Shown piece after piece: positions 37,316 through 64,000 of a stretch of 64,000 nt of DNA. The position numbers and the translations under genes are program-made. This DNA is from Paracoccaceae bacterium (GTDB lineage Bacteria > Pseudomonadota > Alphaproteobacteria > Rhodobacterales > Rhodobacteraceae), in assembly GCA_020425085.1 (NCBI GenBank), contig JAGQRW010000007.1:806001-870000 (forward strand), in the 5' to 3' direction. Each line of letters begins with the position of its first letter. Position 1 is the stretch's first letter. The notes beneath the pieces are model-generated. The model was given only the letters and a program-made list of their open reading frames with translations. It was not told where the DNA came from and made no database searches.

Positions 37316-38752
37316 TTGGCAGAAGAAACCGCCTGTCCGGTCACCCGTCACGCCATACCGCTGCCGCCAAAACCAACAGCGCGGGCCGACAAGGTGTCGC
37401 TGTTGGGATACCTCAGGCTGTTTCGCCGCGACATTCTGTCGGCCCAGCCCAAGCGGTTGTATCACGCGTGGATGGCGGAGTTCAGAACGCCGTTCTTTCG
37501 CTCATACCTTTGCAACGATCCGGCGCTGGTGGAGCTGGTGCTCAGAACCCGGCCCAAGGATTTTCCGAAATCCGAACGCATGCGCGAGGGGTTGAAACCC
37601 CTGCTGCGTGACAGCGTATTCATCACCAATGGTGCCCTTTGGGAACATCAGCGCCGCATCATCGACCCCGCCTTTGAAGGTGGCCGCCTGCGTGAGGTGT
37701 TCCCGGCGATGTGGGATGCCGCCGTTGCCGCCACCGACCGCCTGCTGGCGAAGGCCGATGGTCGCGATGTCGAGGTCGAGGCCGAGGCCAGCCATCTGGC
37801 GGCCGACATCATCTTTCGCACCATTTTCTCGGTCCCGATCGAGAATGAGGTGGCGCAGCAGGTGTTTCGCGCCTTTCGTGCCCATCAGATGGCGCGCCCG
37901 TTGGTCAATATCGGCGCGGTGCTGCCCTTGCCGAACTGGTTCCCGCGGTTTCATTCGCGTGCAACCCGCCGGACGGCGGCGACCATCAGGGGGCTGATCG
38001 AACAGCTTACGGTCGAACGGCAGGCGGCGATCCGGGCAGGCACGGCCCCCGATGATCTGGCCACCAAGATCATGACCACGCCCGATCCCGAAACCGGCAG
38101 GGTGTTTTCCAACGACGAGATGATTGATCAGGTGGCAATCTTTTTTCTGGCGGGGCATGAAACCTCGGCCTCGGCCCTTGGCTGGGCGCTATACCTGCTG
38201 GCGCTATATCCTGAATGGCAGGAAAAGGTGGCGGCTGAGGCGCTGGAGGCGTTTGATCCGGAAAAGATTTATTTTTCCACCATTTCAAAGCTGCCGATTG
38301 CCCGCGCGGTGTTTCGCGAAACCATGCGGCTATATCCGCCAGTGCCGATGTTCGTGCGCGAGGCGGCCAGGGATGAGGTTTTTCGTGACCGCAAGGTCAC
38401 CAAAGGCGCTCAGGTGATCATCAGCCCCTGGCATTTGCATCGCCACGAACGCATCTGGGATCGCCCGGATGAATTTGACCCGGATCGCTTTACCACCCCC
38501 AATGGGCGCGAGGGGCTGAAATGCGCCTATATCCCGTTTTCCGCCGGTGCCCGCGTCTGCCCCGGTTCCGCATTCGCCATGGCCGAGGGAACCCTGATGC
38601 TGGCAATGCTGATCCGCGCCTTCAAGTTTGAACGCGCCGACAGGCCGGAACCGGTGCCGGCGGCGCATCTGACGGTTCGCGCGCGTGACGGCATCCACCT
38701 GAAACTGACGCCGCGCAATCCGCCGCTTGAAAAGGACAAGATCGACCGATGA
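37316..38752 (+). CDS. Cytochrome P450
   Basis: A heme-thiolate monooxygenase of about 478 residues. The I-helix oxygen-activation motif AGHETSAS, the K-helix ETMR, the PERF-like region DEFDPDRF and the heme loop FSAGARVCPGSAFAM with Cys415 are all present. The loop is of the class seen in fatty-acid or terpenoid hydroxylases of the CYP4/CYP102-like side, not the CYP153 alkane hydroxylases. The start appears to be a TTG at 37316; no better start is visible nearby. Its stop overlaps the AlkB-like start (ATGA), so both are coupled. No ferredoxin or reductase gene is adjacent. Confidence 0.9.
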   Translation: MAEETACPVTRHAIPLPPKPTARADKVSLLGYLRLFRRDILSAQPKRLYHAWMAEFRTPFFRSYLCNDPALVELVLRTRPKDFPKSERMREGLKPLLRDSVFITNGALWEHQRRIIDPAFEGGRLREVFPAMWDAAVAATDRLLAKADGRDVEVEAEASHLAADIIFRTIFSVPIENEVAQQVFRAFRAHQMARPLVNIGAVLPLPNWFPRFHSRATRRTAATIRGLIEQLTVERQAAIRAGTAPDDLATKIMTTPDPETGRVFSNDEMIDQVAIFFLAGHETSASALGWALYLLALYPEWQEKVAAEALEAFDPEKIYFSTISKLPIARAVFRETMRLYPPVPMFVREAARDEVFRDRKVTKGAQVIISPWHLHRHERIWDRPDEFDPDRFTTPNGREGLKCAYIPFSAGARVCPGSAFAMAEGTLMLAMLIRAFKFERADRPEPVPAAHLTVRARDGIHLKLTPRNPPLEKDKIDR

Positions 38753-39909
38753 GCCTTTCCAACGCTTCTGCTGCCGCTTCGGTGCGGAAAAAATCTTTGC
38801 GCGCAGCGCCTTACTGGATCACCCTCACCTTTGTGCCGCTGGTGCTGCTGGCGGTCTTGCAGGGCGGCTGGACCATCCTGTTGATCCCGTTTTACGGCTG
38901 GATCCTGATGACCATTCTTGACAGTTTCCTTGGTCCGGATGCCAGCAATCCCGACGCTGATACGCCGGATTCCGAATTGTTGTGGTTCCGCGTGCTGACC
39001 TGGATCTGGGTGCCGATCGAGGCGGTGCTGCTGTTCGGCACCATCTGGTATCTGACCCATCACAGCAACCATTCCACCCTTGAAATCATCGGTATCATGT
39101 TCGGCATTGGTGTCACCACCGGCACGGTCGGCATCGTCTATGCCCATGAATTGTTCCACAAGACCAACCGGTTTGAACCGATCCTTGGCGATATCCTGCT
39201 GGCGATGGTGCTTTATGGCCATTTTCGCACCGAACACATGCTGGTGCATCACCCCCATGTCGGTACACCGCGCGATACCGTCACCGGGCGCTATAACGAG
39301 GGTTTCCACCGGTTTTTCCCCCGGGTTCTGAAACGCGGGCCGGGATCCGCCTGGCGGGCCGAGGCGGCGATGTTGGCGCGGCGCAACCTGCCCGCGACCA
39401 GCCTGCGCAATCCGATCTGGAAATATCTGGCACTTGGCGCCGTCATGCTGGCACTGGCGTTTCTGGTTGGCGGCTGGCTGGGGATCGTTCTGCTGGTGTT
39501 TCAGGCGTTCATCGCCATCTGGCAGTTGGAACTGACCAATTATGTCGAACATTACGGCCTGACCCGGCGGTATCTTGGCGATGGCAAATATGAACCGGTG
39601 CGCCCGCATCATAGCTGGGACAGCGTGCATCAGATATCCAACCTGCTGCTGATCAATCTACAGCGCCACGCCGATCACCATTGCCACCCGACCAGGCGCT
39701 TTCCTCTGTTGCAAAGTTATTCGCCGGATGAGGCACCACAGCTATCGCATGGCTATCCGCTGATGACGGCCATGGCGATGATCCCGCCCTTGTGGCGGCG
39801 GGTGATGAACCCGAAGGTGCGCCAATGGCGGCGGCAATTCTATCCGGAAATCGAGGATTGGACACCCTATCGCAACCTGTCCTTTCCGGCACCGACCGGG
39901 GCAGGTTGA
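38749..39909 (+). CDS. AlkB-like diiron membrane hydroxylase
   Basis: A 386-residue integral-membrane fatty-acid-hydroxylase-superfamily enzyme. The histidine boxes are HELFHK (133-138), EHMLVHH (162-168) and LQRHADHH (304-311), with NYVEHYGL before the last, as in AlkB. The second box differs from classical AlkB (EHxxGHH). Six hydrophobic helices surround them. The family inserts oxygen at the terminal carbon of alkanes, ethers or related chains using rubredoxin; no rubredoxin is encoded here. Coupled to the P450 upstream. Confidence 0.88.
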   Translation: MSLSNASAAASVRKKSLRAAPYWITLTFVPLVLLAVLQGGWTILLIPFYGWILMTILDSFLGPDASNPDADTPDSELLWFRVLTWIWVPIEAVLLFGTIWYLTHHSNHSTLEIIGIMFGIGVTTGTVGIVYAHELFHKTNRFEPILGDILLAMVLYGHFRTEHMLVHHPHVGTPRDTVTGRYNEGFHRFFPRVLKRGPGSAWRAEAAMLARRNLPATSLRNPIWKYLALGAVMLALAFLVGGWLGIVLLVFQAFIAIWQLELTNYVEHYGLTRRYLGDGKYEPVRPHHSWDSVHQISNLLLINLQRHADHHCHPTRRFPLLQSYSPDEAPQLSHGYPLMTAMAMIPPLWRRVMNPKVRQWRRQFYPEIEDWTPYRNLSFPAPTGAG

Positions 39910-49610: not shown

Positions 49611-49736
49611 ATGTTCCGGTCCTTGCGCGAAAACGGCGCATGTTGAATTGACAGTTGCGGGCGAGTCTGTCCTGATGCAATGCTGCCCTGCGGCCAGCCG
49701 ATGCTTATCCCGGACAATGCAACGGAAAGTCCTGAC

Positions 49737-51197
49737 GTGAACCAGACCATCGAATTTCTTCTCAACGGCAAGCGCATTTCGATTGCCGAATTGCCGCCGA
49801 CCACCACCTTGCTGGAATATCTGCGCGACAACCGCCGCCTGACCGGCACCAAGGAAGGCTGCGCCGAAGGCGATTGCGGTGCCTGCACTGTGTCGGTTGG
49901 CGAATTGCGGCATGGTCAGATTCTGCACCGTGCGGTCAATGCCTGCATCCTGTTTCTGCCGATGCTGGCGGGCAAATCGGTACTGACCGCCGAAGGTATC
50001 CTTGGCCCTGACGGCGAACTTCACCCCTGCCAGCAGGCGATCGTGAAAACCCACGGCTCGCAATGCGGGTTCTGCACGCCGGGGTTTTCCATGTCGCTAT
50101 ATGCGGCTTATCGCAATGGCGGGCTGAACGGGGCTGATGCCATCAACGACACGCTGGCGGGCAATCTTTGCCGTTGCACCGGCTATGGCCCGCTGATTGC
50201 GGCGGCGGGCGACATGGATACTGCCACCCCCCCCGCGTGGGAGACCGGGCGCCAAGCCAATGAACGCCGCGAATTGCTGGCCTTGGCAGAAATCGGCAGC
50301 ATCGAATATCGCACCGGTGCATCGACCTGCCTGATCCCGGCAACACTGGACGAATTTGCCGATGCGGTGGCGCGCCTGCCCGATGCCACCATCGTCGCCG
50401 GTGCCACGGATGTCGGCCTCTGGGTGACCAAGCAGTTTCGCCCGCTGGATGATCTGATCTTTGTCAATCGCGTCAAGGGGTTTGGCGAGATCACAAAAAC
50501 CGCGAACGGACTTTCCATCGGTGCCGGGGCCAGCTACGGCGACGCCCAAGCGGCGATTGCCGCGATGTTTCCCGATTTTGGCGAACTGATCCGGCGTATC
50601 GGCTCGGTTCAGGTCCGCAATTCCGGCACCATCGGCGGCAATGTCGCCAATGGCTCGCCGATCGGTGATACCCCGCCGGCGCTGATTGCTTTGGGCGCGA
50701 CGCTGACGCTGAGAAATGGCAGCGAACGCCGACAGATCAGCATCGAGGATTATTTCATCGCCTATGGCAAACAGGATCGCCGCAAGGGCGAATTCATCGA
50801 AAGTATTGCAATTCCAAAGCTGAACAATCCCTTGCAACTGCGGTGTTACAAGCTGTCCAAACGGTTCGATCAGGATATTTCGGCCCTCTGCGGCTGCTTC
50901 AACATTACCATCGAAGGCGGCACTGTCAGCGAGGCGCGCATTGCCTTTGGCGGCATGGCAGCCATCCCGAAACGCGCGGCAGCGGTCGAGGCGGCATTGC
51001 TGGGCCAGAGCTGGGATGAAACCACCATTCGCCGCGCCATGGCCACGTTCAGGCAGGATTTCACGCCGATCAGCGACATGCGCGCATCGGGCGAATATCG
51101 CCTGAAGGCGGCTGAAAACCTGATGATGAAATACTATCTTGAGGGCGAACTGCCGCCGGAAAAATCGCGGATGATCGGCGCGGGCAGGACATTCTGA
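49737..51197 (+). CDS. xdhA: Xanthine dehydrogenase small subunit (2Fe-2S and FAD)
   Basis: The iron-sulfur/FAD subunit of xanthine dehydrogenase, 486 residues. The plant-type 2Fe-2S domain has CAEGDCGAC, the second cluster domain CGFCTPGF and CRCTGYGP; the FAD domain begins near [15 protein letters not shown] and includes [27 protein letters not shown] 49737 gives the normal N-terminus ([15 protein letters not shown]) with GGAAAG before it; the frame is open further upstream. Its stop overlaps the xdhB start. Confidence 0.94.
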
Positions 51198-53545
51198 TGG
51201 AGGGCGACATGAAAGATACATCATTGGATCAAACCAGCCCCGGTATCAAAGGCGGTGTCGGTGCCGATCTTGGCCATGACAGCGGCGCCAAACATGTCAG
51301 TGGCAGGGCGGTCTATCTTGATGATATCGCGGTGCCTGATGATTGCCTGCATCTGGCCTTCGGCAAGTCGGAAAAGGCGCATGCGCGGATCGTCTCGATG
51401 GATCTTGCCGCCGTTGCCGCCGCCCCCGGTGTGGTTGGCGTCTTTACCCACAAGGATGTGCCGGGCCTGAACGATATCGGCCCGATCATCCCCGATGACC
51501 CGCTGCTGGTCAGCGACACCGCCATGCATGTCGGCCATGCCCTGTTCATCGTCGCCGCCACCAGCCACAATCAGGCCCGCGCCGCCGCAAGGCTGGCGAA
51601 GGTGGAATATGAGGAACTGCCCGCCATCTTGACCGTCGATCAGGCGATGGAGGCGAAATCCTGGCTGATGGACCCTTACGACATGAAACGCGGCGATCCC
51701 GAAGCGGCGATCGAAAAGGCGGCCAACACAATCAGCGGGCGGATTTATGTCGGCGGGCAGGAACATTTTTATCTGGAAGGGCAGGCGGCCCTGGCCATCC
51801 CCGGCGAGGATGATGAGATGCTGGTGCATTCCTCGACCCAGCACCCGAGCGAGATCCAGCATGCGGTGTCGCATATCCTCGGCGTGCCGTTTCATGCCGT
51901 CACCGTGAATTGCCGTCGCATGGGTGGCGGCTTTGGTGGCAAGGAAACCCAGGGCAATCTGGCGGCAGGTGCCGCGTCACTGGTGGCGCGACTGACAGGG
52001 CGCCCCGCCAAGATCCGCTATGACCGTGACGATGATATGGTGATGACCGGCAAGCGCCACGATATCAGGATCGACTATCGCGTCGGCTATGACGATCAGG
52101 GTCGGATTGAAGGCATGGTGGTGGAACAGGCGCTGCGCTGCGGCCATTCCTGGGATCTGTCGCCTGCCATCGCGGAACGTGCCGCGTTTCATGCCGACAA
52201 CTGCTATTACCTGCCAAATGCGCTGATCCGGTCCTATCGCTGCAAGACGCATACGGTTTCCAACACCGCCTTTCGCGGCTTTGGCGGCCCGCAAGGCATG
52301 GTCGGGATGGAGCGGGTGATCGAATCCATCGCCCATGAACGCGGGCTGGATCCGCTGGAGATACGCAAACGCAACTTTTATGGCCGGATGGGCAAGGGTG
52401 ATCGCCTGATGACGCCCTATCACATGAAAGTCACCGACAACATCATCCAGGACATCGTGGCCGAGCTTGAAGTCAGTTCAGACTACGCCAATCGGCGCGC
52501 CGAAATCCGCGAATGGAACCGGCAAAGCCCGATCCTGAAACGCGGCATTTCGCTGACGCCGGTGAAATTCGGCATTTCGTTCACGCTGATCCATTTCAAT
52601 CAGGCGGGCGCGCTGGTGAACATCTATACAGATGGCTCTGTGCAGTTGAACCACGGCGGCACCGAGATGGGGCAGGGGCTGTATACCAAGGTGGCGCAGG
52701 TGGTGGCCGAGGAATTCCAGATCGATATCGACCGGGTGAAAGTCACCGCCACCAATACCGGCAAGGTGCCGAACACCTCGCCCACGGCGGCCTCGTCGGG
52801 TTCGGATCTGAACGGCATGGCGGCGGCTGATGCCTGTCGCAAGATCAAGGCCAACATGGTCGCCTTTGCTGCCGATAAATGGCAGGTCAGCCCGGATCAG
52901 GTGGAATTTCTGGCGGGCCGGGTGCGCATCGGCGATCAGGAGCTTGCCTTTCCCGAATTTGTTGAACTGGCCTATCAGGCACGGGTCTCGTTGTCTTCCA
53001 GCGGGTTTTATGCCACGCCGGATATCCATTGGGATGCGGCAAACGCCAAAGGGCAGCCGTTCTTTTATTTTGCCTATGGCGCGGCAGTCAGCGAATGCGT
53101 GATCGACACCCTGACCGGCGAAAACCGCATCCTGAGGGTGGATATCCTGCACGATGTCGGCAAATCCCTGAACCCGGCCATCGACCTTGGCCAGATCGAA
53201 GGCGGCTATGTGCAGGGGGCGGGCTGGCTGACCACTGAAGAACTGGTTTATGACGACAAGGGGCGGCTTATGACGCACGCGCCTTCGACCTACAAGATCC
53301 CTGCCTGTTCCGATCGCGCGCCCGACATGCGCATCCGGCTTTGGCAGGGCGAGGGCAGCCCGGAAAAGACCATCTATCGTTCCAAAGCAGTGGGTGAGCC
53401 GCCGCTGATGCTGGGCATTTCGGCACTGATGGCGCTGTCGGATGCGATTGCGGCGGCGGCCGATTACCGGCATGATCCAAAGCTGGATGCGCCAGCAACG
53501 CCGGAACGGGTGCTGATGGCAGTGGAACGGGTCGGGGGCAACTGA
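51197..53545 (+). CDS. xdhB: Xanthine dehydrogenase large (molybdenum) subunit
   Basis: The molybdopterin-binding subunit oxidising hypoxanthine and xanthine to urate, 782 residues. The hammerhead domain precedes GGGFGGKETQ, FRGFGGPQGM, the NTSPTAASSGSDLNG stretch and the catalytic-Glu region KAVGEPPLMLGISALMAL, all normal for XdhB. ATG 51197 overlaps the xdhA stop and has AGGA 7 bases upstream; ATG 51209 with GGAGGG is an alternative start. Confidence 0.95.
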   Translation: MEGDMKDTSLDQTSPGIKGGVGADLGHDSGAKHVSGRAVYLDDIAVPDDCLHLAFGKSEKAHARIVSMDLAAVAAAPGVVGVFTHKDVPGLNDIGPIIPDDPLLVSDTAMHVGHALFIVAATSHNQARAAARLAKVEYEELPAILTVDQAMEAKSWLMDPYDMKRGDPEAAIEKAANTISGRIYVGGQEHFYLEGQAALAIPGEDDEMLVHSSTQHPSEIQHAVSHILGVPFHAVTVNCRRMGGGFGGKETQGNLAAGAASLVARLTGRPAKIRYDRDDDMVMTGKRHDIRIDYRVGYDDQGRIEGMVVEQALRCGHSWDLSPAIAERAAFHADNCYYLPNALIRSYRCKTHTVSNTAFRGFGGPQGMVGMERVIESIAHERGLDPLEIRKRNFYGRMGKGDRLMTPYHMKVTDNIIQDIVAELEVSSDYANRRAEIREWNRQSPILKRGISLTPVKFGISFTLIHFNQAGALVNIYTDGSVQLNHGGTEMGQGLYTKVAQVVAEEFQIDIDRVKVTATNTGKVPNTSPTAASSGSDLNGMAAADACRKIKANMVAFAADKWQVSPDQVEFLAGRVRIGDQELAFPEFVELAYQARVSLSSSGFYATPDIHWDAANAKGQPFFYFAYGAAVSECVIDTLTGENRILRVDILHDVGKSLNPAIDLGQIEGGYVQGAGWLTTEELVYDDKGRLMTHAPSTYKIPACSDRAPDMRIRLWQGEGSPEKTIYRSKAVGEPPLMLGISALMALSDAIAAAADYRHDPKLDAPATPERVLMAVERVGGN

Positions 53546-53576
53546 TCGCTGGCCACAACAGAACGAAGGACGGTGC

Positions 53577-54890
53577 GTGAACGATAAAACCATTCTGCGC
53601 GGGCGCTTGCTGAGCTTCAGACGCGAGCCGGAAAACGCCGATGATACCGCCGCCTTCAGTTATATCGAAGATGGTGCGCTGGTGATGGCAGGCGGGATGA
53701 TCCTGTCGGTCGGTGCATATGCCGATCTTGGGTCGGACGTCCGGCAAGCTGCCAGCATCATCGACCATCGTCCGCATCTGATCCTGCCCGGTTTCATCGA
53801 CGCGCATCTGCATTTCCCGCAGATGCACGCCGTTGCCTCTTGGGGGGCGCAACTGATGGAATGGCTGAACACCTATACCTTTCCGCAGGAAGCACGGTTT
53901 GCCGAGCTCGCCCATGCAGAACGCATGGCAGGCTGGTTTCTGGATCAGCTTGTCAGCCAGGGCACGACCACGGTTGCCGCCTATTGTTCGGTGCATTCAA
54001 CCTCGGCAACGGCGCTGTTTCAGGCGGCCATGCAGCGGAATTACCGGCTGATCGCAGGCAAGGCATTGATGGATCGCAATGCGCCCGATGCGGTGCTGGA
54101 TACGCCGCAACTGGGTTATGACGAAACCAGGTCGCTGATTGCCAGGTGGCACGGGCAGGGGCGGATTGATTACGCCATCACGCCGCGTTTTGCCATCACC
54201 TCGACGCCCGAGCAGATGGAAACCGTCGCGGCACTGATTGCCGAACATCCGGATTGTTATGTCCAGACGCACCTCAATGAAAACCACTATGAAATCGAAC
54301 TGACCCTCAGCCTTTACCCCAAGGCGCGCGATTACCTGGATATTTACGAGGCTTACGGCATGCTGGGTCCAAAATCGCTGTTCGGCCACTCGATCCACAT
54401 GAATCAACGCGAACGTGCGGCGATGGCGGCCAGCGGTTCGGTGGCGGTGTTCTGCCCGACCTCGAACCTGTTTCTCGGCAGCGGGCTGTTTGATGAGGCG
54501 GCGATGAAATCCGCCAGTGTTCGCACCGCCATTGCCACCGATATCGGCGGTGGTACGGATTATTCCATGCTGCGCACGCTGGATGAGGCCTATAAGGTCT
54601 TGCAGTTGCAGAACCAGAAACTGGATCCTTACCGCGCCTTTTACTGGCTGACCCTTGGCAATGCCCGCGCGTTGTCGAAACAGGCCGAGATCGGCACCCT
54701 GGAAGTCGGAACCGAAGCGGATGTGGTGGTCCTGAACAGCGCCGCCACGCCGCAGATGGCGATGCGCATGGAAACCGTCACATCACTGCGCGAGGAATTG
54801 TTCGTGTTGCAGACCTTCGGTGATGACCGCGCCATTGCCGAGACCTATGTCAGCGGCAAGGCGGCGAAAAACCGCTCTCTGACCAGCTAG
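53577..54890 (+). CDS. guaD: Guanine deaminase
   Basis: Amidohydrolase deaminating guanine to xanthine, the substrate of XdhAB just upstream. The 437-residue protein has the zinc motif GFIDAHLHFPQMHAVASWG, TTTVAAYCSVH, VQTHLNENHYEIE, and ATDIGGGTDYSMLRTLDEAYKVLQL, the guanine deaminase form of these regions. The start is a GTG at 53577 with GAAGGA upstream. Confidence 0.95.
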   Translation: MNDKTILRGRLLSFRREPENADDTAAFSYIEDGALVMAGGMILSVGAYADLGSDVRQAASIIDHRPHLILPGFIDAHLHFPQMHAVASWGAQLMEWLNTYTFPQEARFAELAHAERMAGWFLDQLVSQGTTTVAAYCSVHSTSATALFQAAMQRNYRLIAGKALMDRNAPDAVLDTPQLGYDETRSLIARWHGQGRIDYAITPRFAITSTPEQMETVAALIAEHPDCYVQTHLNENHYEIELTLSLYPKARDYLDIYEAYGMLGPKSLFGHSIHMNQRERAAMAASGSVAVFCPTSNLFLGSGLFDEAAMKSASVRTAIATDIGGGTDYSMLRTLDEAYKVLQLQNQKLDPYRAFYWLTLGNARALSKQAEIGTLEVGTEADVVVLNSAATPQMAMRMETVTSLREELFVLQTFGDDRAIAETYVSGKAAKNRSLTS

Positions 54891-57019: not shown

Positions 57020-57511
57020 TCAGCCTGCCGGCAGACTTGCGGCGATGATCGGCTCGCATAACCGAACGATGTTGCAATCACAACCGGCTACCCCGGCATA
57101 GGCTTGCAGATTGACCCGGATCACCTGTTTGCCCGGCGTGTCGGGCTGCTTGCCGTTGAGTGATTGCGCCAGGCTGTGCTGTTGCAGCATTTCGGCCGAC
57201 AGTTCAGCCTGTTTCACCAGATCGCGCAGGGATTGTTTCTGATCATCATTCGTCACCATGTTCTTCATGTCCCGCCGGATGGTGCGCAATGGCTGCACAA
57301 CCTTGTCCTGCCATTCCCGGCTCTGCCCTGCGACATCCGCCATTTGCCGTTTTGTGAACGCAACCCCAAGGCTGCCTGCCCAGCAACAAAACAGCACCAG
57401 ATTCACATCCAGCCCGTGGGTATCCTGCAAATCCAGACAGGCGGATTCAACGCCACTGGTTGCGTAAACCCGCAGGGAAAACGCCCAGAACGCCCCGGCG
57501 TCATCGGTCAC
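57020..57511 (-). CDS. TIGR02444-family protein
   Basis: A 163-residue protein with the pattern WAFSLRVYATSGVESACLDLQDTHGLDVNLVLFCCWAG, typical of the TIGR02444 family of unknown function. It is mostly helical. The GTG start at 57511 overlaps the ubiX stop by 4 nt, making it the last gene of the coupled string. Whether it belongs to the decarboxylase system or only shares the transcript is unknown. Confidence 0.82.
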   Translation of the reverse strand: MTDDAGAFWAFSLRVYATSGVESACLDLQDTHGLDVNLVLFCCWAGSLGVAFTKRQMADVAGQSREWQDKVVQPLRTIRRDMKNMVTNDDQKQSLRDLVKQAELSAEMLQQHSLAQSLNGKQPDTPGKQVIRVNLQAYAGVAGCDCNIVRLCEPIIAASLPAG

Positions 57512-58089
57512 TGCCCGTTCTTTCCGGCGGCTCCGCTCCAGCGGCGAAACAGGTCGTGTTCGATATCAAACTGATCCAGCGCCTTGCCGACGCTTTGGTG
57601 GATGATGTCGGTGATGGTTTGCGGGCCGTGATAAAACGCCGGCATCGGCGGCAGGATGGTGGCACCGAGATCGGCGCAACGGCTCATCAGATCGAGGTGA
57701 CCCTTGTGCAATGGGGTTTCACGCACCATCAGCACCAGGCGGCGGCGTTCCTTCAGGCAGACATCCGATGCGCGGGTGATCAGATTGTCGTTATAGGAAT
57801 TGGCGATGCCCGACAGGCTTTTGATGGTGCAGGGCACCACCACCATGCCCTTGGTCTTGAACGATCCGCTGGAAACCGCTGCCGCCATGTCCTTGTTGGA
57901 ATAGACCACGTCGGCCAGGCCCTTTACTTCGGCCAGGGAAATATCGGTTTCGATCGCCAGGTTGCGCCCGGCGGATTCAGAAATGATCAGATGGGTGGGA
58001 TAGCCGATCTTTTTCAGCACCCGGAGCATTTCAACCCCATAAATCACACCGGTGGCGCCGGTTATGGCGACGATAAGGGGCTTGGTCAT
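57508..58089 (-). CDS. ubiX: UbiX-family flavin prenyltransferase
   Basis: A 193-residue flavoprotein that joins a dimethylallyl group to FMN, making the prenyl-FMN cofactor needed by UbiD decarboxylases. The FMN-binding VAITGATGVIYGVEMLRVL, the SSGSFKTKGMVVVPCTIKSLSGIANSYNDNLITRASDV region and RRLVLMVRETPLHKGHLDLM are standard. ATG 58089 overlaps the stop of the LpdD-like gene by 4 nt. It probably serves the UbiD three genes upstream. Confidence 0.94.
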   Translation of the reverse strand: MTKPLIVAITGATGVIYGVEMLRVLKKIGYPTHLIISESAGRNLAIETDISLAEVKGLADVVYSNKDMAAAVSSGSFKTKGMVVVPCTIKSLSGIANSYNDNLITRASDVCLKERRRLVLMVRETPLHKGHLDLMSRCADLGATILPPMPAFYHGPQTITDIIHQSVGKALDQFDIEHDLFRRWSGAAGKNGQ

Positions 58090-58496
58090 CGGTGGCTCCG
58101 TTTGGTTAGGGCGGATTTCAACAGGTCGGTGATTTCCACGCAACGCTGGCGAATGATGGCGATTGCGTCTGGTGACAGGTCATCCCAGTGTATGCCGGCG
58201 GTGACCACCACATTGGTGTCAAGCGCGCCTGCCAGTTCCTGCGAGGCGAATTTCACCACTTCATCCTCCTTGTGGCCGGGATAGGTCAGCACCGACGCCG
58301 TGGCGCTGGTGACCGAAGGGTCGGCCAGACTGGGGCGGGGCTGTGCAGCGGCAACGGCGCCGATATGCGGGCGCTCGCCGCCCCAGATACATACCAGAAC
58401 GTCCGGCCCGATCAGCCGGGCATCGGCGAAAATCCGGTAATCCCCGGATTTTGTCTGAACCAGGATCGAGGGGTTGGCAGGGACATCTTCATTCAA
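58086..58496 (-). CDS. LpdD-like protein (UbiD partner or prenyl-flavin chaperone)
   Basis: A 136-residue protein resembling LpdD, the small third gene of gallate and related decarboxylase operons beside UbiX and UbiD homologues. The recognisable features are a beta-rich N-terminal half and the C-terminal stretch YPGHKEDEVVKFASQELAGAL followed by VVVTAGIHWDDLS. Its ATG overlaps the CBS gene stop by 4 nt and its stop overlaps the ubiX start by 4 nt. The assignment rests on this pattern and position and should be tested by profile search. Confidence 0.65.
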   Translation of the reverse strand: MNEDVPANPSILVQTKSGDYRIFADARLIGPDVLVCIWGGERPHIGAVAAAQPRPSLADPSVTSATASVLTYPGHKEDEVVKFASQELAGALDTNVVVTAGIHWDDLSPDAIAIIRQRCVEITDLLKSALTKRSHR

Positions 58497-59173
58497 TGCA
58501 CTGCCCCGTCACCACTGCCCCGCCGCTTTTCGTAGGCTTCGAATATCTCGAACCCGGCGGTCTTCAGGTTTTCGACCACCTGCATCAATGGTGCGTCCTG
58601 AAACCGGATGATCACCCGGTGCCCCGCCGAGGGGGTTTCGGTATCCCTGATTGAAAACAGCGAATGCACATTTGCGCCGGTCGCTTCGACAATGCTGGCG
58701 ATTTTGCCGATGGTGCCTTTTTCAAGCGGGCGCGGTGCCAGGGTAATGCCGCTCCAGTCATGCCACGCCCCCAGCATCCTTGCGGCAAGATGGAAAATCT
58801 CGCTGGCCGAGACGATGCCGACCACCTTGCCATTGTCCAGCACCGGAAACTGGCTGACGCCCGTGTCCTGTCCGGTTTGCAGGCAATATTCCATGGTGTC
58901 GCCAATATCGACGGTAACCGGATTGCGCACCATCAAATCTTTGACTTTCAGGCGGGTGACGAAATAGTTGATCTCATGCTGATCCTGGGTTCGGGTGGCG
59001 TTCTCGACCGCGCGCAGGCAGATTGCCCGCGAAATGAGGCCTCGCAAGCGGCCGTCATCCACCACCGGCACTGCCCGCAGATTGTTTTCATATAGCAGCC
59101 GTTCGACATCCGTCACCAGTGTATCGCTGGAAACGATCATCGGATCCCTGGTCATCCAGTTTCGAACGATCAT
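58493..59173 (-). CDS. CBS-pair protein with C-terminal ACT-like domain (phenylphosphate synthase subunit 3-like)
   Basis: A 226-residue protein (about 25 kDa) with two CBS motifs: MIVRNWMTRDPMIVSSDTLV through LRAVPVVDDGRLRGLISR, and VKDLMVRNPVTVDIGDT through SQFPVLDNGKVVGIVSAS; then an ACT-like region (IGKIASIVEATGANVHSLFSIRD). Size and domain make-up match the 24-kDa CBS subunit that stimulates phenylphosphate synthase. It overlaps both neighbours by 4 nt. CBS domains usually bind adenine nucleotides, so it may sense energy charge. Confidence 0.85.
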   Translation of the reverse strand: MIVRNWMTRDPMIVSSDTLVTDVERLLYENNLRAVPVVDDGRLRGLISRAICLRAVENATRTQDQHEINYFVTRLKVKDLMVRNPVTVDIGDTMEYCLQTGQDTGVSQFPVLDNGKVVGIVSASEIFHLAARMLGAWHDWSGITLAPRPLEKGTIGKIASIVEATGANVHSLFSIRDTETPSAGHRVIIRFQDAPLMQVVENLKTAGFEIFEAYEKRRGSGDGAVH

Positions 59174-60423
59174 CTGTCTTTCTCCTGCTGATTGGCTTGT
59201 TTGAACAACCGGGCAAATTCATCCACCGCCACACGGGCAAATTCCGGGGTATAAAGATGCAGGTCAACCTCTTTGATCGCGCTCTTGTCGGTCAGTTTCT
59301 GTTTCAGCCGGTCGACAAATGCCGCATCCGCCACCGGGTCGTAGATCTCGCGCCCTTCCATGTCGAGCGACGACCAGCCCTTTGACGGGATCAGAAACGT
59401 GAATGGCCCCCTGGCATGGTTCAGCCTTTCGGCGATTACATCTGCCGCCGCACGCAGTTCGTCCGCAGTGGTGCGCACCTGAATGCGCAATGCGTCCTGT
59501 ACATATTGCACCCGGTCGCGGGTTTTTTCCAGCATGTCCGCCCGCCCGCCGTAAGACAGGATATCCAGACCGCAAGGCGCCAGAACCATCGGAATGCCAC
59601 GTTCGACCGCCGCCATCAGGCGGTTGGGGCCGGGGTCGCGATTGCCATTGAACAGGTTTTCCATGACACCGCCGATGCAGATGTCCAGAACCCCGGCAAA
59701 GGCGCCGTCAGCGATCATTTCCTCCATCGCCAGGTCGCCCTTGCCCTGGGCATGACAGACCACCGGGATGAACCCGGACTCTTCCAGCATTCCAAGGGCC
59801 GCCTGTACCGCCATTTCACCAAAGCCAAATCCAGTGATGGCAACCACCGGTTTGTCAAAGGTAAAATCGGTGCCCGTGGTCATTTCGACCATACCGCAAA
59901 TGGCCCCCACCGCGTTGGTTATCTGCGCTTTCAGCAACGGGTTCATTTTCACGATGTCCAGCACCGTGTGATGCATGGTGATGTCGCGGGTGCCGACATA
60001 TTTGTCGATATAACGCGGATGCGCCGCCATCGGCGAGGCCATCACCTTGGGCATGCCGAACGGCAGCAGTTTCATGATCGAGGTTGCAACCAGCGTCGCG
60101 GTTCCGCCGCCGACGCCGAAAATGCCATGTACCCGGCCCTGGTCCAGCATTTCCCTGACAATGGCCGCAGCCCCGTTGATCTGGTTCTGAGTGGCGCGAT
60201 CGCGGTCCGAGCGATAGAATTCGCGCACCTTTTCGATCGGCAATCCGCCCCTGAGGGCGATCTGTTCGCAGGTAACATCGCCATCAAAGGGCGGCGGTTC
60301 CTCCATGGAGAAATCCAACAGGCAGGTATCGTGGCCACGCGCCTCGATCAGGTGTTTGACAAAGACGATATCCTCGCCGCGCGTATCCAGATTGCAAACA
60401 ATGACGATGGTCTTTCTGGCCAT
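59170..60423 (-). CDS. Tm-1-like ATP-binding domain protein (UPF0261)
   Basis: A 417-residue protein of the Tm-1-like/UPF0261 family, named after the ATP-binding half of the tomato Tm-1 resistance protein. It opens with TIVIVCNLDTRGEDIVFVKHLIEARG and includes FGVGGGTATLVATSIMKLLPFGMPKVMASPMA, VVAITGFGFGEMAVQAAL and FLIPSKGWSSLDMEGREIYDP. The bacterial function is unknown. ATG 60423 has AGGGA upstream. Its place between UbiD and the CBS gene suggests an ATP-dependent step or chaperone role. Confidence 0.88.
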   Translation of the reverse strand: MARKTIVIVCNLDTRGEDIVFVKHLIEARGHDTCLLDFSMEEPPPFDGDVTCEQIALRGGLPIEKVREFYRSDRDRATQNQINGAAAIVREMLDQGRVHGIFGVGGGTATLVATSIMKLLPFGMPKVMASPMAAHPRYIDKYVGTRDITMHHTVLDIVKMNPLLKAQITNAVGAICGMVEMTTGTDFTFDKPVVAITGFGFGEMAVQAALGMLEESGFIPVVCHAQGKGDLAMEEMIADGAFAGVLDICIGGVMENLFNGNRDPGPNRLMAAVERGIPMVLAPCGLDILSYGGRADMLEKTRDRVQYVQDALRIQVRTTADELRAAADVIAERLNHARGPFTFLIPSKGWSSLDMEGREIYDPVADAAFVDRLKQKLTDKSAIKEVDLHLYTPEFARVAVDEFARLFKQANQQEKDR

Positions 60424-60454
60424 GGTGATCCCTGAGCTGATTCCGTGACGCAAC

Positions 60455-60482
60455 GCCCCCCCTTCTGGTGAAAGGGGGGGGC
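60455..60482. terminator. GC-rich hairpin between ubiD-like and Tm-1-like genes
   Basis: GCCCCCCCTT pairs with AAGGGGGGG(G)C around an 8-base loop in the 66-base gap. There is no T tract on the minus strand, so partial termination, mRNA processing or differential stability within one operon is more likely than full termination. Confidence 0.45.
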
Positions 60483-60489
60483 AGATTGC

Positions 60490-61992
60490 CTATTTCTTGA
60501 CAGGTTCCGGCCGGGTCAGACTGTTGATCAGGCCCTCGACCGGGCTGGTCCCTTCGAACCCGTATTCGTTCCAGCGGTTCGACACTTTTTGCAGAACTTC
60601 ACGATCCATGAAGATCTCGTTGGGCTTGTTGGCCCATTCATAGGGTGTACAGGCATCCAGAATGATGCGGCTGGTAATGTCGCGCGCATCAATCGGCAGC
60701 CCGGGATCCAGCGGCGTCGAGCGCCCCCGGTCGATGATCTGCGCCGAGCGTTTGGGATCAAACCGGGTCGCCAGCGCCCACCAGATGCGGTCCCAGTCGT
60801 CGGCGCGGATGTCGTGATCGACCACGATCACCCCCTTCATGCCGTAATGCCCGGTGGTCGAGGCGATCACCGCGTTGCCCACATGGTTGGAATGGCCCGG
60901 ATATTTCTGCCGGACCGAGACAACCCCCCAGAACCGACCGCAGGCCTCGGGCGGGATATAGACACTTTCGATGCCCGGAACCTTCATGGTTTCAAGGTCG
61001 TGCCACAGCGTGGCGGTGCGGTTCAGCGACTGGATCATGTGGATGTCATTGATCGGCTTGCCGACGGTGGTGGACCACATGATCGGCTTGTTGCGGTGCA
61101 GGATGCGCTTGATCCGCAGCACCGGCTTGGGGAAATCCTTGCCCTTGTTGCCGGAATAATAGCCGGTATATTCGCCAAACGGCCCTTCCTCCATCAGCTC
61201 GTTGGGGTCGATGAACCCTTCACAGATGAATTCGGCGTTGGCTGGCAGGGTCAGGCCGGTCAGGTCGGACTTGAACACCTCGACCGGGCGCTGTCTGAGA
61301 GCGCCGGCGATGTTGTATTCATCGGTCTGGGCGCTGACCAGGGTGGAGCTGGCCAGAAACAGCACCGGGTCGGTGCCGACAACGGCCGCCGCTGGCATAA
61401 GTTCGCCGCGTTCGGCATACTGCTTCAGGTGGAAATCGGCATGCTTGCCCTTGATGATCTGGGTGCCCAGAATATCATTGCCCAGAACCTGCGAGCGATA
61501 GGTGCCGAGGTTGACCCAACCGGTATCCGGATCCTTGGTTACCAGAAATCCGGCGGTGACAAAGAACCGGCCGCCATCCTCGGGATAAAACCAGGGCGAG
61601 GGGATCTTGTCCATGTCGACATCGTCGCCTTCCAGAACGTTTTCCATGACCTTGGGCTTGTCGACGAAAACCGGTGGCACAAGTTCCTGAACCGTCAGTT
61701 TCATCCATTCCTTGGAAAGGTCGCTCATCGACAGGTTGTGGTCCTGCTCAAGCGCGATGGCCAGCCGTTTGGGGGTGGTGAATGCGCTGGTCAGAACCGG
61801 AATATCAAAGCCTTTGACATTCTCATAAAGCAGCGCCGGACCTTTCTGTTCTTCGTTCACCTTTGAAACATGGCAAAGTTCGAATTTCGAATCCACTTCC
61901 GCCTTGATCCGTTTCAATTCACCGGCCTGTTCCAGGGCGTCAATATAGCTGCGAAGATCGTCGATCATGATGGTATCCTTTTTGCTGGTCAT
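60490..61992 (-). CDS. UbiD-family prenyl-FMN-dependent (de)carboxylase
   Basis: A 500-residue UbiD-fold enzyme that reversibly removes or adds CO2 on aromatic or unsaturated acids. The catalytic E-R-E set is present: Arg166 in NLGTYRSQVLGND, Glu269 and Glu274 in EEGPFGEYTGYYSG; the hydrophobic PPEACGRFWGVVSVRQKYPGH stretch follows. GGAGG precedes ATG 61992. Together with the split PEP-synthase pair upstream and UbiX and LpdD downstream it most resembles phenylphosphate carboxylase or hydroxyarene decarboxylase systems. The substrate is unknown. Confidence 0.92.
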   Translation of the reverse strand: MTSKKDTIMIDDLRSYIDALEQAGELKRIKAEVDSKFELCHVSKVNEEQKGPALLYENVKGFDIPVLTSAFTTPKRLAIALEQDHNLSMSDLSKEWMKLTVQELVPPVFVDKPKVMENVLEGDDVDMDKIPSPWFYPEDGGRFFVTAGFLVTKDPDTGWVNLGTYRSQVLGNDILGTQIIKGKHADFHLKQYAERGELMPAAAVVGTDPVLFLASSTLVSAQTDEYNIAGALRQRPVEVFKSDLTGLTLPANAEFICEGFIDPNELMEEGPFGEYTGYYSGNKGKDFPKPVLRIKRILHRNKPIMWSTTVGKPINDIHMIQSLNRTATLWHDLETMKVPGIESVYIPPEACGRFWGVVSVRQKYPGHSNHVGNAVIASTTGHYGMKGVIVVDHDIRADDWDRIWWALATRFDPKRSAQIIDRGRSTPLDPGLPIDARDITSRIILDACTPYEWANKPNEIFMDREVLQKVSNRWNEYGFEGTSPVEGLINSLTRPEPVKK

Positions 61993-62035
61993 TCCTGTTT
62001 CCTCCGTGTTGCTGGTATTGTCGTCGTTCGAGTTG

Positions 62036-63121
62036 TCATTTTCCCAGTTTCACCCCGGTCAATATTGATGAAAGAATGTGATCCATCGCCGATGCGCCGG
62101 GTTTGCTTTTCGGTTCGGGTTTGCGGTCGTTCCAGACGGTTTCCGGGCGGGCCTGCAGAATGAAGATGTTGCTGCCGGCGGGCATGTCGCTGTCGACGGC
62201 CCATTCGATATCCATGGCGCGGCCATAGTGTTTTTCGATCGTCTTGCCCAGTTTTGCCAATTCGACGACTTCATCATCAAGAATCGACTGAACCTTCTGA
62301 CGCTCGGCCGGAAGTTCGATGCATTTGGACGTATGGTTTTCGTGATCGACCACATAGGCAACCTCTTTACGGGTGATGGTTCTGGCAACCGTATCCAGTG
62401 AAACCTTGTTGACCATGAATTCATCCGGGGTCACTTCGCCAGAAACCACGGCCTCGCCAAAGCCGAAGCTGGAATTGATCAGCATCATGGAATTGTCGCC
62501 GTTTGCCGGGTTGATGGTGAACATCACGCCGGCGGCATGGGAATTCGCCATCTTCTGTATCCCGACGGAAATGGCGACATCCTTGTGGTCAAAACCGTTG
62601 CGGATCCGATAGGCGATGGCGCGGGCGGTGAACAGCGAAGAAAAACACTTACGGGTATGCGCCAGAACGTCATCCACCCCGCGCACCCAGAGGAAGGTAT
62701 CCTGCTGACCGGCAAAGCTGGCGCCGGGCAAATCTTCGGCCGTTGCCGAGGAACGAACCGCGACCGGCACCGCAGGGCGGCTGCAATGATTTGATAGCGA
62801 GCGGTAGTGTTCGGCGATCTCATCCTCCAGTTCGATGGAAAATGCCGCCGCCTCGATCAGTTCGCGGATCCGGTCGCTGGCCCGGTCCTGGGCTTCGATG
62901 TCGTCCTGTTTGAGGTCTTTCAGCAGGGCGAATATGTCATCGGAAATGCCCGCCTCGTCGATGAAGCGGGAATAGCCCTCGGTTGTCACGGCGAATCCGG
63001 GTGGTACGCGAATGCCGGCGTTTATCAACTCTCCCAGCGAGGCGCATTTGCCGCCTACCAGAGCTATATCTGATTTGGTGCACTGATCGAAACGGCAGAC
63101 CAGAGGTGGATGCTGCGACAT
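62036..63121 (-). CDS. PEP synthase-type ATP-binding protein (phenylphosphate synthase subunit 2-like)
   Basis: A 361-residue protein (about 40 kDa) equal to the N-terminal ATP-grasp domain of PEP synthase/PPDK, without the histidine and PEP domains. The N-terminus VGGKCASLGELINAGIRVPPGFAVTTEGY, the SSATAEDLPGASFAGQQDTFLWVRG stretch, GVMFTINPANGD and the C-terminal DIEWAVD plus IFILQARPETVW are canonical. ATG 63121 gives the usual start; the frame opens upstream. In phenylphosphate synthase this subunit transfers the beta-phosphoryl of ATP to the histidine of subunit 1. Confidence 0.88.
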   Translation of the reverse strand: MSQHPPLVCRFDQCTKSDIALVGGKCASLGELINAGIRVPPGFAVTTEGYSRFIDEAGISDDIFALLKDLKQDDIEAQDRASDRIRELIEAAAFSIELEDEIAEHYRSLSNHCSRPAVPVAVRSSATAEDLPGASFAGQQDTFLWVRGVDDVLAHTRKCFSSLFTARAIAYRIRNGFDHKDVAISVGIQKMANSHAAGVMFTINPANGDNSMMLINSSFGFGEAVVSGEVTPDEFMVNKVSLDTVARTITRKEVAYVVDHENHTSKCIELPAERQKVQSILDDEVVELAKLGKTIEKHYGRAMDIEWAVDSDMPAGSNIFILQARPETVWNDRKPEPKSKPGASAMDHILSSILTGVKLGK

Positions 63122-63198
63122 GTGTTCCTCCACAGTATTTGGAGATTTCCGGGTTTCCGGCGGGCAATCGGTGCCCGCCGGAGATCTGTGCATGCGGA

Positions 63199-64000
63199 TC
63201 AGATAAGTTCGACCTCTCCGGTTGATCCGTTGACCCTGATCATGTCGCCGGTCTTGACGATCTTGGTGCCGGTGCCGGTGCCGACCACCGCTGGCATGCC
63301 GTATTCGCGGCATACGATGGCGGCATGGCTCATGATCCCGCCGACATCGGTGACGCAGGCCTTGATCTTGACAAATGCCGGGGCCCAGGATGGTGACGTT
63401 GTCGGCGAAACAAGGATTTCCCCTTCTTTCAGGTCACCGATTTCCTTGACCGTCCGACAGACACGCGCCGGACCTTCGACCGAACCGGGACTTGCGGCAA
63501 AGCCTTTGAACAGCGAAATGTTGTCGTTGTCGGCAACATCGGACCAGTTGGCCAGCGACTCGTTGGTGACGCCCCAAAGTACCACGGTAAACGGTTCCTG
63601 AATGACCTCGGGCGCCGGTCCTAGTGCGGGTGGGGGGGTCCATTCCTGAAACTTTTTCATCACCCCCTTGCGCCACTCGATTTCCTTGGGCCATACCAGC
63701 GGCCCGCGCGGTTTCACTCCGGTTGCCCAGGCGGTGGTCAGATCCCAAAGGGCATCCTTGATCTCGCTTTTCTTCAAGAGCCAGATGTCTTCCGCATCCT
63801 TCAGGAAACCGTGTTCGTGCATGATCGCCGCGAATTCCCGGATCTTGTTCCAGAAAATCGAATGGAACCAGTGTTCAACATAGAACAGGTGGTTTTCGAC
63901 ATAGGGAAACACCGTCTTGGCAACCCCCAGCAACTGATCAAAGGCCTGGCGATCCTCATCCGTGGTGATCAGATCACGATATTCCTTGGTGATGCGATCC
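63199..64000 (-). CDS. PEP-utilising mobile-domain protein, 5' end beyond window (phenylphosphate synthase subunit 1-like)
   Basis: The C-terminal 266 codons of a protein that continues past the window end. It ends in the swivelling phosphohistidine domain: LKEGEILVSPTTSPSWAPAF, then GGIMSHAAIVCREYGMPAVVG with the His that becomes phosphorylated, then DMIRVNGSTGEVEL. In PEP synthase this follows the ATP domain in one chain; here the ATP domain is a separate gene 77 bases downstream, as in phenylphosphate synthase. No PEP/pyruvate-binding barrel follows the His domain. Confidence 0.85.
   Translation of the reverse strand, partial: DRITKEYRDLITTDEDRQAFDQLLGVAKTVFPYVENHLFYVEHWFHSIFWNKIREFAAIMHEHGFLKDAEDIWLLKKSEIKDALWDLTTAWATGVKPRGPLVWPKEIEWRKGVMKKFQEWTPPPALGPAPEVIQEPFTVVLWGVTNESLANWSDVADNDNISLFKGFAASPGSVEGPARVCRTVKEIGDLKEGEILVSPTTSPSWAPAFVKIKACVTDVGGIMSHAAIVCREYGMPAVVGTGTGTKIVKTGDMIRVNGSTGEVELI

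Follow-up and report, generated by a model that had tools for sequence, protein, structure and literature searches.

The closest described systems for anaerobic phenol use, the clusters of Thauera, Azoarcus and Aromatoleum, combine a phenylphosphate synthase (PpsABC) with a phenylphosphate carboxylase of alpha, beta, gamma and delta subunits (PpcA, PpcB, PpcG and PpcD). For Geobacter metallireducens, the 2009 work of Schleinitz reportedly found a ppcB homologue alone within the pps-ppc cluster and a ppcD homologue near it, and what carboxylates phenylphosphate where the four-subunit Thauera enzyme is absent is said to have been an open question since then, as PMC7500099 also reflects. Here we analyse a seven-gene cluster on the minus strand at positions 57508-64000 of a 64,000-nucleotide stretch of Paracoccaceae DNA (the window; G000:C18:806001-870000, from a genome of 3.34 Mb in 20 contigs). 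We conclude that the genes very probably form an operon covering the two opening steps of phenol use without oxygen, in a bacterium able to respire nitrate.

Reduced carboxylases have precedents. An excerpt of PMC7500099 describes G. metallireducens and D. anilini as lacking the gamma subunit, and the alpha, beta and delta subunits of D. anilini as recruited from different loci. PpsAB, PpcB and the UbiX-like PpcY are named in an excerpt of PMC5946492 as the subunits common to syntrophs and to nitrate, sulfate and iron reducers, and a passage of PMC2988823 gives a further variant with ppcA-like and ppcB-like genes in strain NaphS2. The initial annotation of the window had presented the route as not yet described; the reduced carboxylase, at least, is not unprecedented, given the missing gamma subunits and the shared PpsAB, PpcB and PpcY of these reports.

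The kinase and the compact carboxylase

All seven frames are intact, belong to the expected families and lie in the order first annotated; an eighth frame overlaps the end of ubiX:

63199..64000, minus strand: 3' part of a ppsA-like gene (phosphohistidine/swivel and phenol-binding subunit); the full gene, of 610 amino acids, runs past the window
62036..63121, minus strand: ppsB-like gene for a separate ATP-grasp subunit of about 361 amino acids (PF01326, 396.7 bits; 62% identity to KH32C PpsB)
60490..61992, minus strand: gene for a UbiD-family carboxylase, PpcB (beta)-like (TIGR02724, 559.7 bits; 52% identity to KH32C PpcB)
59170..60453, minus strand: gene for a UPF0261 protein (Tm-1-like), which may act as an accessory to the compact carboxylase (PF06792 and PF23189; PDB 9mpy)
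58493..59173, minus strand: gene for a CBS-domain protein, PpsC-like third subunit (PF00571, two stretches; 52% identity to the KH32C CBS protein)
58086..58496, minus strand: LpdD-like gene for a probable chaperone of reduced prenylated FMN (prFMNH2) serving UbiD (PF21758; PDB LpdD 8pzh, E 1.5e-4)
57508..58143, minus strand: ubiX-like flavin prenyltransferase gene (TIGR00421, 240.4 bits, cut-off 108.9)
57020..57511, minus strand: TIGR02444/DUF2390 gene, possibly the last of the operon (4-base overlap with the end of ubiX)

Extension of the sequence past position 64000 completes ppsA (L002:7200-9032:-, 610 amino acids; G000:C18:869202-871031 without the stop codon), with the phosphohistidine motif and, beyond the gene, a divergent activator. 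PF00391, the mobile His domain, is the sole Pfam domain of the full protein, and Pfam finds no phosphoenolpyruvate (PEP)-binding barrel in it. PpsA is therefore not a PEP synthase or pyruvate phosphate dikinase, an identity that we reject. The swivel motif [TS]xxGGxxxH (His569 here) is present in all 82 loci compared, which comprise this locus, that of Azoarcus KH32C and the best 80 of 252 relatives, found in a collection of species genomes by a scan for two short peptides shared by both PpsA proteins; the restriction to the top 80 biases the sample towards near relatives. For ppsB, the 425-residue frame over-reads the start: family matches begin only at residues 70-84, and the start was therefore placed near 63121 (MSQHPP).

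Among 72,556 plasmid records, the best match of PpsA is that of Azoarcus KH32C (record NC_020548; 70.1% identity), which heads a cluster annotated ppcB, ppcD, ppcA and ppcG. The five records ranking after it (Rhodococcus, Thermomicrobium, Rhizobium) reach 43-46% and haloarchaeal ones 37-40%, while in the genome scan PpsA of Aromatoleum loci with the classical cluster is 70-71% identical. The identities to the KH32C subunits (70% for PpsA, 62% for PpsB, 52% for the CBS protein) bear out the earlier assignment of these three proteins as phenylphosphate-synthase-like, and the sequence features of that enzyme, a PpsA of about 70 kDa with a swivel His domain and without a barrel, a separate ATP-grasp subunit and a CBS subunit, are found. 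Upstream of ppsA lies an intact, divergent XylR/DmpR-type sigma-54 activator gene with XylR_N and V4R domains (L002:9530-11329:+). Among 79 relatives of both cluster types, 75 carry a sigma-54-like site in the 300 bases preceding ppsA (1.3 expected from base shuffles).

The carboxylase UbiD shows the UbiD_N, UbiD and UbiD_C domains (Pfam) and passes the NCBI model for the beta subunit of phenylphosphate carboxylase, TIGR02724 (559.7 bits, cut-off 468.95), as well as the broad UbiD-family model TIGR00148. It falls far below the cut-offs of VdcC (297.6 bits against 650), menaquinone decarboxylase, ubiquinone UbiD and the alpha subunit. Together with the TIGR00421 match of UbiX, this agrees with the reading of UbiD and UbiX as carboxylase and cofactor enzyme, as first proposed. 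The sole other UbiD homologue of the genome is 32% identical, reaches 111.6 bits with the alpha model (cut-off 564.6) and has its highest score, 528.9, with the model for ubiquinone UbiD (cut-off 788); it lies about 0.8 kb from UbiU.

The remaining subunits, noted as missing from the start, are indeed not recognised. No PpcA exceeds the cut-off in the genome, no convincing PpcD homologue was found in the genome (best E 0.022, 16 bits) and none at the locus, and no PpcG is present at the locus, to which that search was confined. Thus, of the Thauera-type enzyme the beta subunit is present and alpha and delta are not, while PpsAB, PpcB and UbiX without alpha correspond to the Geobacter-type compact cluster. 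This is not peculiar to one genome: PpcA over cut-off occurs in none of 39 compact-cluster genomes (this one, 33 others with the Tm-1-like gene and five with a ligase), as opposed to all eight classical genomes drawn from 28 loci. A downstream metallophosphatase gene was considered as the missing delta subunit; it is found within 10 of 34 Tm-1-type and all five ligase loci, and its occurrence in five of 28 classical loci as well weakens this idea.

Distribution of the compact cluster and its Tm-1-like partner

The Tm-1-like gene is observed in 34 of the 82 loci and PpcD with PpcG in 28, and the two kinds never occur together. Of the other 20 loci, five have an acyl-CoA-ligase-like gene and 15 break off no more than 3.4 kb past ppsA; among these short loci, L068 shows a partial Tm-1-like gene and L088 a partial ligase. 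The order PpsA-PpsB-UbiD-Tm1-CBS-UbiX recurs in Pseudomonadota, Myxococcota and Thermodesulfobacteriota genomes, including the Geobacter metagenome-assembled genome (MAG) L080, so that these genes are not neighbours by chance. The expected co-occurrence of the gene set elsewhere accordingly stands for these six genes in several phyla and fails for the LpdD-like gene, which lies near the cluster in only four of the 82 loci (this one, L023, L024 and L031; in 15 of the 82 the sequence stops too early for it to be seen). A TIGR02444/DUF2390 homologue occurs within six of 34 Tm-1-type and none of 28 classical loci, a weak contrast since classical loci extend less past the cluster. In eight relatives' loci a NUDIX-hydrolase-like gene (by eye; no NCBIfam match), not seen in the window, stands between the Tm-1-like and CBS genes (for example L031:15924-16481, L047:15783-16328 and L083:15871-16473).

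Of 295 genomes from the same family, counting this one, 14 match PpsA at E 1e-20. A full-length match with more than 48% identity occurs only here, and G169, from the same genus, has no PpsA match.

In the UbiD tree (outgroups KH32C PpcA and the third UbiD of KH32C), a compact-cluster clade (41 rows, support 97/99) is separated from the classical PpcB clade (29 rows, 99/99). UbiD of other Tm-1-type loci is 72-84% identical to the one studied here, save L087 (54%), and that of classical loci 50-53%. The protein groups with those of two alpha- and two gammaproteobacterial MAGs (L023, L025, L024, L077; 100/95). The alphaproteobacterial neighbours and the size of the family (294 genera sampled) suggest that the genome is that of an alphaproteobacterium, perhaps one of the Rhodobacteraceae. 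L087 UbiD forms a long branch outside both clades. This Desulfarculaceae MAG shows a third arrangement, in which two divergent UPF0261 genes (32-36%), an opposite-direction divergent UbiD and a ligase lie at L087:5638-18033.

The Tm-1-like protein comprises the UPF0261 N and C domains (PF06792 and PF23189). Its nearest solved relative is Saro_1862 (PDB 9mpy; profile E 1.9e-80 over nearly the full length, 28-29% identity), and its predicted model (predicted local distance difference test 88.1, 20 sequences) matches both Saro_1862 and tomato Tm-1. According to the PDB entry title, Saro_1862 was crystallised with bound acetovanillone, a phenolic, which suggests that the Tm-1-like protein may bind a phenolic ligand and makes it a candidate accessory factor. 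The UPF0261 family is known mostly through the tomato virus-resistance protein. An excerpt of PMC5028733 treats the origin of plant Tm-1, and phenylphosphate is not mentioned in PMC2700814; our literature searches returned no paper joining the Tm-1-like/UPF0261 family to phenylphosphate, UbiD or phenol, none joining anaerobic phenol, phenylphosphate and Rhodobacteraceae, and no mention of Saro_1862 among the matches listed.

At the position of the Tm-1-like gene five compact loci (L077, L094, L095, L098 and L101) have the acyl-CoA-ligase-like gene; frames were read in four and the fifth identified by homology, and the ligase families were determined in two. A close Tm-1-like gene is missing in all five ligase variants and all eight classical genomes, with 27-31% homologues in two of these 13. 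The ligase variants fall in three places within the compact UbiD clade, some weakly supported, and the Tm-1-like gene was therefore probably lost more than once.

Proposed route for phenol and its alternatives

The genome encodes an outlet for 4-hydroxybenzoate. Contig 11 carries HcrA, the alpha subunit of 4-hydroxybenzoyl-CoA reductase (1248.8 bits, cut-off 994.55; a second HcrA lies on contig 3), a class I benzoyl-CoA reductase (BcrC 675.8, cut-off 421.15; BcrB 853.9, 486.55; BcrA 781.4, 578; BcrD 448.5, 312.85), 6-hydroxycyclohexenecarbonyl-CoA dehydrogenase (Had; 583, 338.65) and UbiU (492.3, 440). The genome also encodes NarG (2174.5, 1084.15), benzoate-CoA ligase (716.7, 375.25), PobA (698.9, 538.7) and LigA- and LigB-type dioxygenases. 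No ligase dedicated to 4-hydroxybenzoate was identified: relatives of the KH32C cluster's ligase in this genome reach only 35% identity. Within the compact clusters L065 and L082, relatives of the PaaK-like AMP-binding ligase from the phenol cluster of KH32C are 81% identical to it.

Its gene content suggests that the organism is a facultative anaerobe that can feed benzoyl-CoA metabolism. The initial annotation had taken it for an aerobe with an undescribed route for another aromatic or heterocyclic compound. We reject the aerobe on genome content, since BcrCBAD, 4-hydroxybenzoyl-CoA reductase, NarG and UbiU are all present; the evidence points instead to phenol via 4-hydroxybenzoate. Given HcrA, Bcr, benzoate-CoA ligase, NarG and UbiU, the genes are best read as an anaerobic route from phenol through phenylphosphate and 4-hydroxybenzoate to benzoyl-CoA. 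HcrA over cut-off is found in 24 of the 39 compact-cluster genomes (this one included) versus two of 20 genomes from the same family that lack it; the latter were the first 20 listed, the groups are unmatched for ancestry, and one of the two positives is the same-genus G169.

We infer which substrate is used, in what order the reactions run and what the Tm-1-like and LpdD-like proteins do, as follows. PpsB would present ATP, and the phosphohistidine of PpsA would take a phosphate and hand it to phenol, yielding phenylphosphate, AMP and inorganic phosphate; the CBS protein would stimulate this phosphorylation by PpsAB. An excerpt of PMC12167813 gives the corresponding mechanism, ATP to His to phenol with release of AMP, for both PpsAB and the phenolic kinase HpeHI. 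The single PpcB-like UbiD would then carboxylate phenylphosphate to 4-hydroxybenzoate, using prenylated FMN that UbiX would make and that the LpdD-like chaperone would probably bring to it. The Tm-1-like protein may serve as an accessory of the carboxylase, perhaps binding a phenolic or phospho-phenolic ligand in place of alpha, gamma and delta. 4-Hydroxybenzoate could proceed to benzoyl-CoA without oxygen, or via PobA and LigAB with oxygen.

Several observations weigh against this scheme. No sigma-54-like site is found in the 497 bases upstream of ppsA here (L002:9033-9529), even with one extra mismatch allowed. The benzoyl-CoA genes sit on a different contig from the cluster, which itself lies between purine-degradation genes. 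HcrA over cut-off is missing in 15 of the 39 compact-cluster genomes (two come close, at 894 and 889 bits), although this absence is weak since many of them are MAGs; HcrA is also found in the cluster-free G169 and is therefore not specific to phenol. As to the carboxylase, 12 of the 39 genomes, this one not among them, have UbiD paralogues that weakly match the alpha model (best 359.8, cut-off 564.6) and could be unrecognised partners of the compact enzyme. Aniline carboxylation in D. anilini, in the excerpted PMC7500099, needed two beta-type subunits from different clusters, and the single UbiD may therefore yet require a partner. Finally, a close Tm-1-like gene is missing from five of the 39 genomes, one of which has a 31% homologue, and L087 carries both this gene and the ligase; the Tm-1-like protein is therefore not strictly required. 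We rejected it as a strict requirement because these five genomes have the ligase at its place and no close copy elsewhere, while the coexistence of both in L087 weakens the ligase as a plain substitute.

The surroundings of the cluster show further features. Xanthine dehydrogenase sets and deaminase-like genes stand on both flanks (window 49680-54890 and L002:11409-16661), as if the cluster had been inserted into a region for purine breakdown. Farther off in the window lie a urocanate-hydratase homologue (29423-31141; S-methyl thiourocanate hydratase model 665.8, cut-off 880; HutU 654, cut-off 375) and a cytochrome P450 gene followed by a membrane hydroxylase/desaturase-like gene (37316-39909; alkane-hydroxylase-like by eye, no NCBIfam match).

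Three other explanations were weighed. The main substrate of these enzymes might be catechol (converted to protocatechuate), hydroquinone or a substituted phenol, with phenol itself used only on the side; T. aromatica uses its phenol enzymes for catechol, and LigAB would accept protocatechuate. The kinase family is also broad, HpeHI phosphorylating many phenols in the excerpt of PMC12167813, but HcrA and Bcr in this genome and HcrA in 24 of the 39 fit 4-hydroxybenzoate, and PpsA is much closer to annotated phenol-cluster PpsA than to other kinases, so that we regard this alternative as unlikely. A hybrid aerobic or micro-aerobic route, in which 4-hydroxybenzoate formed from phenol undergoes ring opening with oxygen by PobA and LigAB, draws on the presence of these genes; it appears improbable to us, as the anaerobic set is also present and offers the simpler outlet, and as PobA and LigAB, encoded on a different contig, would handle 4-hydroxybenzoate whatever its origin. 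A gallate/vanillate-type decarboxylation module (LpdBCD or VdcBCD), by chance beside a PEP-synthase-like pair, is suggested by the LpdD-like gene adjoining ubiX and is rejected as extremely improbable, since UbiD fails the VdcC cut-off yet passes that of the phenylphosphate carboxylase beta subunit, the order with PpsAB recurs across phyla and LpdD is found in only four of the 82 loci.

For the phenol operon itself, we further raise, as a tentative possibility, that the compact cluster encodes a second, distinct phenylphosphate carboxylase, in which one UbiD acts with a Tm-1-like protein that binds ATP or a phenolic and takes the place of alpha, gamma and delta. If true, the bacterial UPF0261 family would gain a biochemical role in aromatic catabolism, and what replaces the missing subunits in Geobacter-type phenol degraders would be explained. 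The compact set, present in 39 genomes without a recognisable alpha subunit and never with PpcD or PpcG in the 82 loci, narrows the candidates for carboxylation to UbiD, UbiX, the Tm-1-like protein (34 of the 39 genomes) and sometimes LpdD.

Comparison with known systems

LpdD is described as a chaperone that binds prFMNH2 and helps to activate UbiD (PMC10865409, in excerpt). The protein encoded here belongs to the LpdD fold family and adjoins UbiX, and is probably a prFMNH2 chaperone for UbiD; unlike it, the published LpdD belongs to gallate decarboxylase, and the match is distant (E 1.5e-4). Saro_1862 is a full-length homologue of the Tm-1-like protein, although at 28-29% identity and with acetovanillone known from the entry title. 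The phenolic kinases HpeHI and CreHI are two-component dikinases of the same kind as PpsAB (PMC12167813, in excerpt), whereas PpsA is only 43-46% identical to its full-length relatives in other contexts. Of the four plasmid records whose contexts were inspected, one adjoins toluene-monooxygenase and P450 genes and another biotin-carboxylase genes, and the Rhizobium and Rhodococcus neighbourhoods, two of those inspected, contain no UbiD; in our reading these relatives are Hpe/Cre-type kinases.

With the Thauera/Azoarcus/Aromatoleum type, compared through KH32C (NC_020548), the cluster shares PpsA, PpsB, the CBS protein, a PpcB-like UbiD, UbiX and the divergent XylR-type activator. It differs in gene order, in the added Tm-1-like and LpdD-like genes and in a genome without PpcA over cut-off or a clear PpcD and with no PpcG near the cluster. 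The likeness to the Geobacter type draws on MAG L080 and on excerpts of PMC7500099 and PMC5946492; here the difference is the LpdD-like gene and the narG-bearing, probably alphaproteobacterial genome. The overall purpose is ordinary and the pathway known, while the conserved compact carboxylase with its Tm-1-like partner is less so, in a version of the cluster that is widespread and little studied. The make-up of this compact carboxylase agrees with, and goes beyond, the reduced set of subunits known from G. metallireducens.

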